Assembly (NCBI RefSeq): GCF_004341395.1
Contig: NZ_SLXT01000002.1
Coordinates: forward strand, 124,001-188,000
Length of the DNA stretch: 64,000 nt
DNA from: Heliophilum fasciatum
GTDB lineage: Bacteria; Bacillota; Desulfitobacteriia; Heliobacteriales; Heliobacteriaceae
Reading direction: 5' to 3'
Every line of letters starts with the position of its first letter. Within the stretch, counting starts at the first letter, position 1. A program made the translations under genes and the position numbers. This document shows, piece by piece, positions 31,621 through 62,061 of this stretch. A model generated the notes under the pieces. It saw only the letters and a program-made list of their open reading frames with translations, was not told where the DNA came from and did not search any database.

Positions 31621-31734
31621 ATACAACCTTGTTTTTAATTGAATCTTTGCATAATTAGTGGTAAAATTATTTCAAAGAAGGATACTCAAAGGGATATTTG
31701 TAAAAAAATACATGGAGGGGGGGCTGTTATTGAT

Positions 31735-32433
31735 ATGGTAAATAAGAAAAAAATACTTATTCCTTTGGTTAGTCTTTGCACATATTTAACCATGAACGTT
31801 GGAAGTGCTTTTGCGTGGTCATATTCCGATTACTCACATGGAAGTTATGTGCCCAAAAACGGGGATATTAGTAGAACAATTTCAAGCGACAAAACATACT
31901 TCATAACAAGAGTGGACTTTACTTTAGACTCAACTAACAGGACAAGTATATTGGACTACAACAATGGAGGAGATAATCCGGGAACGTCTTGTGACAATAA
32001 ACAGGCTTATTTAACCCTTGATCAAACAGCTGTTCCTGAAAACACACTTGATCTGGAAATTTCCGCATCAAGTGTAGTCTCTAATCTCCCTAACCCTAAA
32101 TATGATCTTGAAGTGAATTACGTGGGGATTGATAACGATGAATCAGAGGTAGTGGCTCTCGGTTCAGTTTCGGCATATAGTTATTACATGAGAACTGCAT
32201 GGAATGATTATCGTGATGGTGGTAGCTTAGACGGTGGAAAAATTCAAGCCCAATTTGCTATGAGTAATCTTGGAGTAAGTGACTACATTCGTGGTCGGTT
32301 AACCATATATAGTAAAATTCATTCAATGGATTCACCAAATTCAAAATGTCACATGAGGATCCCAAGGTGGGATAGCACCTATATCCTGGATATCCTACGT
32401 CATAACTGCAACAATCATAGGAGATTTTTGTGA
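31735..32433 (+). CDS. Small secreted protein, C-terminus replaced by MITE sequence
   Basis: 232 residues as it now reads, starting MVNKKKILIPLV at 31735 behind GGAGGGGGG. A signal peptide ends near SAFAWS. The mature part is polar and beta-like (SDYSHGSYVPKNGDISRTI, GDNPGTSCDNKQAYLTL) with no domain I recognise. From Tyr184 onward the reading frame runs into the 247-bp inserted element, which supplies about 48 foreign residues ending NNHRRFL. Removing the element and one target repeat restores the native frame to a stop at 32607-32609 (see 32533-32609). AT-rich relative to the flanks. Followed by two more small genes in the same direction, probably one operon. Confidence 0.7.
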   Translation: MVNKKKILIPLVSLCTYLTMNVGSAFAWSYSDYSHGSYVPKNGDISRTISSDKTYFITRVDFTLDSTNRTSILDYNNGGDNPGTSCDNKQAYLTLDQTAVPENTLDLEISASSVVSNLPNPKYDLEVNYVGIDNDESEVVALGSVSAYSYYMRTAWNDYRDGGSLDGGKIQAQFAMSNLGVSDYIRGRLTIYSKIHSMDSPNSKCHMRIPRWDSTYILDILRHNCNNHRRFL

Positions 32434-32532
32434 ATCGGAGTTGTTTTCCCGATATAATTTGGAAAATTAAAGAGATCAACGGATGGAATATGAGCTTTCA
32501 TTTGGACAAATCTGGTTAACCGAACACGAATG
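32286..32532 (+). mobile_element. 247-bp MITE-like element, copy A
   Basis: The ends are inverted repeats of 19 bp, CATTCGTGKTCGGTTAACC (one mismatch). The 10-bp sequence TAAGTGACTA stands directly on both sides (32276-32285 and 32533-32542), a target-site duplication. There is no room for a transposase. A second copy of the same length lies inverted at 60837-61083. Inside is a GTG-started 29-codon frame with an AGGAG site (32431-32519 region), kept open in both copies. Confidence 0.9.
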
Positions 32533-32609
32533 TAAGTGACTATAATAACTGTACTCAATCTGACGTTATTCAAGCCATTGTAACTTATCCAGATAACTAT
32601 GGACAATAA
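32533..32609 (+). pseudogene. Detached 3' end of the interrupted secreted-protein gene
   Basis: Starting in the right target repeat, the frame reads VSDY then about 21 residues ending NYGQ and a TAA at 32607-32609. It continues exactly from codon GVSDY of the upstream gene once the element and one repeat copy are removed. It is no longer translated from the native start. The next gene starts 21 bp later, consistent with an original operon. Confidence 0.8.
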
Positions 32610-59622: not shown

Positions 59623-60831
59623 TTATCCCACCGCCCGCACATGCCTGCTAGATGCTAATTGTTTTGCTTGGAATTCATCCAATAAAGTAACTGCTCTATT
59701 TTCCCAAGACATTTTTCTAACTTCGGTTAACTGCTTGTTTTTAATACTTTCAGACCACTTATATTCTACATTTCTCAACAATGATATTATGTCGTTATGC
59801 GTATGACCAACAAAAATAAAATCATTAAACCGAATAGCACTTGGTATAGCTGTTGCGACAATAGGTTTTCCTGTAGCCATATATTCATATAATTTTAAAG
59901 GATCTGAAGCAAGAGAATGAGGTTCATAATTTCTTGGTAGCAGAAGAACATCAAAATTATGTAAATAATTTGGAACTAAATCATATGACTTAGGACCAAG
60001 TAATTTTATTTTGGGGTTATTTCTCAAGCTGTTAATTTTTTGTTCACCAATTGCATTCTCAATAACTGGACCAACAAAAACTAAAGTTCCCTTATCAAGA
60101 GAACGTGCAATGTTTATTATTAGATCTATATCAATCCAATTGGTAATTGCCCCGACAAAACCTATTATTGGTTTTTCCAGTTCTATCAAATCATTTAGAG
60201 GTCGATTAAATGATGGCTTATGTGCAAATCTTTTAATATCAACTCCGTTTGATAATAGTTCTACGGAACGCGAATAATCTTTTTGGATTTTTTCCACTAA
60301 ATATTTAGATACAGCCGTCGTTAATGTGGCTTGATCTATAATTTGTAGGAACTGCCGCTCTAGAATCACTCTCTCCGCATTTGTAATACCAGGAAAGCCC
60401 AAATTATCATCAAGAATATCGAATATTAACCATCGTGGTTTTAATGCCATCATTATATTATAAGATTGACTAATACCTCCTGATGAAAGATGAAGTATTG
60501 ACTCTTCTCTCCAGCTATCTCCTAATTCCTTGGATAACAGTTGCCCCAAGGTTTTCAATGACCACAAACGTTTAACATGACTTAATCCAAATGAAGAAGG
60601 TAGAGTTTCAAGTGGCGGTGTACAAACAAGAACATTTTGAGATGTATTGCAACTCCATGATGTGCTAAAAGTATAATTATTTTTTTTAGCTTTTCGATAT
60701 CCGATGCTAGGGTCAAGAAAAACTTTATTAATATTCGAATACGCAAGTGTCATGGACCGCATAGTATCACTTAGTTCCTCATTTGTCCATTCATATGGAT
60801 GCATTCCTACTACTATGATGTTGTTTATCAT
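59623..60831 (-). CDS. Glycosyltransferase (GT4/GT1-like)
   Basis: 402 residues, AT-rich. GT-B fold signs: IIVVGMHPYEWTN at the N-terminus, VSKYLVEKIQKDY and LLSNGVDIKRFAHKP mid-chain, GFVGAITNWID, and the donor-binding SDPLKLYEYMATGKPIVAT. A surface polysaccharide role is likely, but there is no such gene cluster around it. The start codon is separated from its ribosome site by the inserted 247-bp element, so translation is probably weakened. It splits a decayed defence locus and looks horizontally acquired. Confidence 0.8.
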   Translation of the reverse strand: MINNIIVVGMHPYEWTNEELSDTMRSMTLAYSNINKVFLDPSIGYRKAKKNNYTFSTSWSCNTSQNVLVCTPPLETLPSSFGLSHVKRLWSLKTLGQLLSKELGDSWREESILHLSSGGISQSYNIMMALKPRWLIFDILDDNLGFPGITNAERVILERQFLQIIDQATLTTAVSKYLVEKIQKDYSRSVELLSNGVDIKRFAHKPSFNRPLNDLIELEKPIIGFVGAITNWIDIDLIINIARSLDKGTLVFVGPVIENAIGEQKINSLRNNPKIKLLGPKSYDLVPNYLHNFDVLLLPRNYEPHSLASDPLKLYEYMATGKPIVATAIPSAIRFNDFIFVGHTHNDIISLLRNVEYKWSESIKNKQLTEVRKMSWENRAVTLLDEFQAKQLASSRHVRAVG

Positions 60832-60836
60832 CTCTA

Positions 60837-61083
60837 CATTCGTGTTCGGTTAACCAGATTTTTTCAAACGAAAGCACATACCCCATCCGCTGCTCTCTTT
60901 AATTTTACAAATTATATCGGGAAAACAACTCCGATTCACAAAAATCTCCTATGATTGTTGCAGTTATGATGTGGAATATCCATAATATGGGCGTTATCCC
61001 ACCTTAGGATCCTCATGTGACATTTTGAATTTGGTGAATCCATTGAATGAATTTTACTATATATGGTTAACCGACCACGAATG
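60837..61083 (-). mobile_element. 247-bp MITE-like element, copy B
   Basis: Same length and 19-bp terminal inverted repeats as copy A, in opposite window orientation, about 90 % alike by eye. It is flanked by the 10-bp target duplication ATCATCTCTA (60827-60836 and 61084-61093). It starts 6 bp upstream of the glycosyltransferase ATG. The AAAGGAAG site that should serve that gene is on the far side (about 61097). Confidence 0.9.
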
Positions 61084-61227
61084 ATCATCTCTATCTTCCT
61101 TTCATATTACATTCCAAGAGAGACCCAGGTTACGCTAGCATGTCCAGCATAATAATCCACAGGATGGTTGCAGCGTTAAATATAAATACAACTCTAGGAA
61201 TTTGGCATCAAGTAAGGAGAGCAACAG

Positions 61228-62061
61228 TTAGACGTCTTCTTTTTTACCGTTGTAGGGCGTTGCCGTCATGAGTAAGAAATGGCGACTGATCGAACCCAGT
61301 AGTTCACCGAGGAGAAATCGTTTGGTTTTGCTGATTTTGGTGCCGGAGTAGCTGGCCGACATTTTGTGAGCTTCATCGACGACAATGAGATCGCAACGAG
61401 TGAGGCGTAGTTTTTGCTGCAGTTCGTCGTTGCGGGAAAGTTGATCAATCCGGACGACAAGCAGATCGATATCATCAAAAGGATTGCCGCTGGGGGATTG
61501 AGCCACCATATCCCGACTAAAGATGGTAAAGGCGAGGCCGAATTTTTCATGTATTTCATCTTGCCACTGCTCCACCAAGCTACCGGGGGCGACGATGGGC
61601 ACGCGTTTGGCGTCGGCCCGCATGAGCAGTTCACGGATAAACAAGCCGGCCATGATCGTTTTGCCAGCACCGGGATCGTCGGCCAAGACGTAGCGCAGCG
61701 GTTGCCGGGTAAGCATGGACTCGTAGACGGCCATAATCTGATGGGGCAACGGATCGACGTTGGAGGTATGTACGGTCATCATGGGGGCAAAAAGATGGGC
61801 CAAATTGATGCTGTACGCTTCGGTGACAAGCTTAAGATCGGCTCCCGGTGCATCAAATGCCCACGGGCGACCGGCCTCAGCCAAGGATAGATTCGCTTCA
61901 TCGGTGCGAAAAAGCATCCGTTCTGTTAAGCGGCCATCGGTGGTTTTGTAGTATACAGTGATGGCGTTATTACCAACCGGTTCAGTGGTGACGACGCGGA
62001 CGATTTGGTTTGATTCGATACCGGCGATGGCAGTTTCTTTCTTGATGTCTTCGAGTTTCAT
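61228..62061 (-). pseudogene. SNF2-type helicase, N-terminal fragment
   Basis: 277 residues, start behind AGGTGA. It has the Q-motif-like [11 protein letters not shown], motif [14 protein letters not shown] (Asp where Glu is usual), Ia [23 protein letters not shown] and [13 protein letters not shown], then stops at KKEDV. The second RecA domain and the rest (several hundred residues) are gone. This family (COG0553 type) is found beside DUF1156/DUF499 genes in defence loci, and a DUF499 relic lies 1.6 kb downstream on the same strand. Confidence 0.75.

Follow-up and report, generated by a model that had tools for sequence, protein, structure and literature searches.

The closest published case to the elements described here is ISH2 of Halobacterium. 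In Halobacterium salinarum, ISH2 is a 531-bp MITE with ISH8-related termini that makes 10-bp duplications and is mobilised in trans by ISH8 (PMC10264941), and the short ORF inside it is reported to be expressed (PMC3119063). The ISH8 subgroup of the IS4 family is characterised by CAT-----------T----- ends, 10-bp repeats, a length of 1400-1800 bp and a DDE transposase with a YREK motif, and ISH8 is reported to insert without apparent target specificity (PMC2266710). We found no description of such a MITE/IS system in the host studied here. This heliobacterium-like bacterium encodes a protein that matches the photosystem reaction-centre family PF00223, and its open frame of 611 aa has the size expected of the heliobacterial homodimer protein; the host is therefore most likely a heliobacterium.

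MITE copies in the window and in the genome

The window, that is the whole 64-kb stretch of DNA that was analysed, contains two MITE copies (Table 1). The coordinates, the equal length of 247 bp, the opposite orientation, the 19-bp ends and the different perfect 10-bp repeats given for them by a first-pass annotation were confirmed for both copies. Allowing up to 3 mismatches, the 19-bp end pattern was matched by exactly four sites of the window, each without a single mismatch, compared to a mean of 0.01 in shuffled sequences.

Table 1. Coordinates of the MITE copies, their target duplications and the disturbed genes within the window
Feature	Position	Strand	Remark
MITE copy 1	32286..32532	+	247 bp
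Target duplication TAAGTGACTA, left of copy 1	32276..32285	.	perfect repeat
Target duplication TAAGTGACTA, right of copy 1	32533..32542	.	perfect repeat
Inverted end of copy 1, IS right-end type, CATTCGTGGTCGGTTAACC	32286..32304	+	pattern match
Inverted end of copy 1, IS left-end type, CATTCGTGTTCGGTTAACC	32514..32532	-	identical to IS left ends on C34, C45, C55
MITE copy 2, reversed	60837..61083	-	247 bp, 93% identical to copy 1
Target duplication ATCATCTCTA, left of copy 2	60827..60836	.	includes glycosyltransferase start codon (CAT on +)
Target duplication ATCATCTCTA, right of copy 2	61084..61093	.	perfect repeat
Secreted-like ORF interrupted by copy 1	31639..32433	+	flank joining
Glycosyltransferase gene	59623..60831	-	cut off by copy 2 from ribosome-binding site

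We searched the genome (3.14 Mb, 73 contigs) and found seven copies in total, namely the window pair plus one copy on each of contigs C42, C43, C57, C4 and C11. The earlier count of two copies is therefore correct for the window, but not genome-wide. The seven copies measure 212-248 bp, are 70-100% identical to the query copy and all carry the 19-bp ends, which supports their reading as a MITE family. This length leaves no room for a transposase, and no ORF was recognised inside. Perfect 10-bp duplications, different at each site, flank six of the seven (TAAGTGACTA, ATCATCTCTA, TAGCCCCCTA, TAGCATCCTC, ACTGTGGCTC and AAGACAAATT), in agreement with the independent insertion that had been claimed. 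Since the copies on C43 and C57 are identical across 247 bp and sit at sites with different duplications, the MITE family has moved recently. Neither the 83 genomes searched from the class nor the 399 sampled from the phylum contained a further full copy; partial matches outside the own genome were limited to a 29-bp end in genome G008 and, in genome G427, 24 bp that look like a chance match.

A probable partner insertion sequence of the ISH8 subgroup

The 19-bp end was matched at seven additional places in the genome, all of them at contig edges. An identical 19-bp left end was present on C34, C45 and C55. On C34 and C55 a transposase gene begins after this end, with its first 97 codons present, and this N-terminal part matched NCBIfam NF033592 (IS4_1) with an E-value of 8e-15. 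The transposase C-terminus (FVAEAVDPNVFRKRMLDPWSK, then stop) was found on C3 and C24, together with a right end that has A at position 9. Because the flanking 10 bp are common to C34 and C3 (GAGCGTTGTA) and to C55 and C24 (AAGGAAGCTA), these contigs represent two full-length insertions that were left unjoined by the assembly. A link between the 19-bp ends and a transposase had been anticipated and does exist, as both the 5' part and the 3' part of an IS4-family gene adjoin those ends in the same genome. The full-length partner postulated by the first-pass annotation was likewise recovered, via the 10-bp flanks of the two insertions; mobilisation in trans is the part that we infer, and the longer IS of this genome probably moves the MITE.

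The flanks of the single IS ends found on C45 and on C25 did not pair, and C9 carried a truncated left end. The latter comprises about 35 bp and continues into what, by eye, is an apparently decayed piece of another transposase (L018 1501-1982; G000:C9:111114-111595). The middle of the transposase gene was absent from the assembled contigs of the own genome; C11 alone gave a match to it, which was weak and decayed. No IS left end was found in plasmids at the DNA level. In genome G006, which represents a second genus of the host family, we detected the same ends and two further 10-bp pairs (CTTGAACTTA and AACGTTGATT).

It had been proposed to compare the elements with IS families that make 10-bp duplications, and the ISH8 subgroup of IS4 fits in its ends, its repeats and, in relatives, the YREK motif. 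The partner IS end CATTCGTGTTCGGTTAACC has CAT at positions 1-3 and T at position 15, as in the ISH8 subgroup, and the 10-bp repeats are found in the pairs C34/C3 and C55/C24 as well as in the two pairs of G006. Genome G004 encodes a relative of 441 aa in which Pfam DDE_Tnp_1 identifies a DDE domain; it carries the YREK motif, and its spacers measure 68 and 126 residues, where the subgroup criterion for DDE is 60-110 and 100-150. Its best annotated plasmid matches were haloarchaeal IS4-family elements including ISH8B, ISH8C, ISH8E and ISHma1, and ISApu2, ISPa13 and bacillar IS4 elements followed well behind.

The N-terminus of the transposase of the own genome was used to retrieve loci, and a scan of these revealed complete elements. 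Such relatives, in archaea and other hosts, measure 1395-1799 bp, are flanked by perfect 10-bp duplications and contain long transposase ORFs that include the YREK motif. The same holds for the archaeal ones (L039, L034, L062, L063 and L059), which span 1395-1408 bp. Near-identical ends occur in the Methanotrichaceae archaeon UBA9297 (CATTCGTGATCGGTTAAGG, L039) and in Natrinema hispanicum (CATCCGTGTTCGGTTAAGG, L062 and L063). Placed via these complete archaeal relatives, the partner system appears to belong to the ISH8 subgroup of IS4. For the ISH8E region the scan gave no boundaries with a duplication, and one ISH8E copy without a duplication is listed in the source paper. In most right-end copies of G004 the left part was lost, which left no readable duplication.

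Three further observations concern these relatives. Four ISH8-type IS right-end fragments of G004 (L111-L114, G004:C1) have inner cut points that are all different, and each adjoins unrelated sequence. In another genus, an internal deletion in an IS relative fuses the N- and C-terminal transposase parts, with 235 codons open (L029 / L122, G005:C40, about 70.5 kb). The Gammaproteobacteria MAG SJ809 carries a complete 1441-bp IS with the ends CATCCGTGTTCGGTTAGCG / CATTGGTGATCGGTTAACG and a 10-bp duplication (L042), that is, the same end type beyond archaea and heliobacteria.

Target sites and disturbed genes

The preferred target reads N-A-N6-T-N, where position 2 of the duplication is A and position 9 is T. 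Among the ten complete duplications of the own genome and G006, A2 (or T9) was present in 17 of 20 half-sites (binomial p 2.5e-8), the pattern having been chosen after inspection of these ten. In nine flanks that had been left out of pattern finding, 13 of 18 half-sites agreed (p 3e-5). The earlier statement that targets end in CTA thus has a real preference behind it, but the true preference is looser and CTA is a special case. Since A2/T9 was less clear in eight complete relatives outside the family, the preference may be particular to these elements. The C11 copy of the MITE has no 10-bp duplication at its flanks. Its left and right flanks both match the target preference, so that two insertions may have recombined, or a deletion may have occurred next to the copy.

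Both insertions in the window disturb a gene. When the flanks of copy 1 were joined, the open frame of the secreted-like ORF, which has no Pfam match, passed through the site and stopped about 20 codons later. Copy 1 therefore truncates this ORF, and the insertion takes the place of its tail of about 20 codons. Copy 2 lies between the ribosome-binding site of the glycosyltransferase gene (AAAGGAAG, upstream of the target) and its start codon. Since the start codon is inside the target duplication, the ATG was kept and the ribosome-binding site was lost. Just upstream of copy 2 (61228-62061, minus strand) lies a helicase gene (ResIII/SNF2-like) that is apparently C-terminally truncated (KKEDV, then stop).

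Relation of the MITE to the IS and to known systems

MITE and IS are similar in the terminal 19-23 bp or so only, with no similarity inside; the shared length is about 22 bp with the IS left end of the own genome and about 23 bp with the IS right end of G006. One MITE end is of the IS-left type (T at position 9) and the other of the IS-right type (A or G at position 9), and the polarity of the IS is therefore kept. Since the similarity is confined to the ends, we regard the element as a type II MITE as that term is used in PMC10969869. With a probability of roughly 0.93, these copies would form a type II MITE family that is moved in trans by an autonomous ISH8-subgroup (IS4) IS of the same genome. 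The ends, the duplications and the copies were seen directly, as were the same ends linked to a transposase gene and on complete relatives. The proposed mechanism starts from the IS transposase, a putative DDE enzyme with a YREK motif, which would bind the CATTCGTG(T/A/G)TCGGTTAACC ends in trans, excise the MITE and insert it at staggered cuts 10 bp apart; cuts with this spacing would leave the 10-bp duplications. Binding in trans, cut-and-paste movement and present activity of the system are predictions from sequence.

Because the MITE ends equal the IS ends, the copies could instead be internal-deletion remnants of the IS (type I) rather than an independently spreading MITE family. This is very unlikely, since similarity to the IS ends after about 19-23 bp, two identical copies sit at different sites, and the seven copies, despite indels, resemble one another in their interiors and have a length and ends of their own. 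That the interior has a separate function (transposase-enhancing subterminal sites, say, or an RNA) and that copy 2 acts as a glycosyltransferase switch is a similarly long shot. It is hardly more credible that the elements are retained for a small RNA, regulator or promoter in the interior, with transposition being secondary. The copies do fold slightly better than shuffled sequences (z about -2.8 to -3.0), but the 19-bp inverted ends would explain most of this, and the interiors differ by indels and 7-30% substitutions. An interior RNA was rejected as a candidate: there was no Rfam match above cutoff, no supporting covariation (two-sided changes in only 2 of 54 consensus pairs, with an unfavourable covariation term) and, for copy 1, no promoter or terminator match. 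That both window copies belong to a larger duplicated segment was ruled out, with next to no probability remaining, because no two sites share their flanks, the 10-bp duplication is particular to each copy, and removal of the insert and one duplication brings back the open frame at site 1 and, at site 2, joins the ribosome-binding site to the start codon.

A type II MITE family served by an ISH8-type IS thus remains our reading, and it resembles ISH2 in several respects: both are without a transposase gene, have termini related to an ISH8-type IS, make 10-bp target duplications and occur in several copies per genome. The host here is a heliobacterium-like bacterium, the MITE is shorter (212-248 bp versus 531 bp), and no ORF was recognised in place of the short ORF of ISH2. 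With the ISH8 subgroup (ISH8E, ISHma1 and others; PMC2266710) the system shares the CAT ends, T at position 15, the 10-bp duplications and, in the IS relatives, the YREK transposase; for ISHma1, our analysis located the right end CATTCGTCTTTAGCTAAGAC with a 10-bp duplication. In contrast to this subgroup, the MITE has no transposase, and in contrast to ISH8 its insertions favour A2/T9. The IS of UBA9297 and Natrinema hispanicum have similar ends and 10-bp duplications, but are autonomous, about 1.4 kb long and archaeal.

The mechanism is ordinary, and the locus is a well-made example of a known element type rather than a new system; the general idea of how such elements work is unchanged. The system accounts for the two disturbed genes of the window, and its insertion sites, which form a clean set, point to a possible preferred target in this subgroup. 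It extends the pairing of an ISH2/ISH8-type MITE with its partner from haloarchaea to a heliobacterium-like bacterium.
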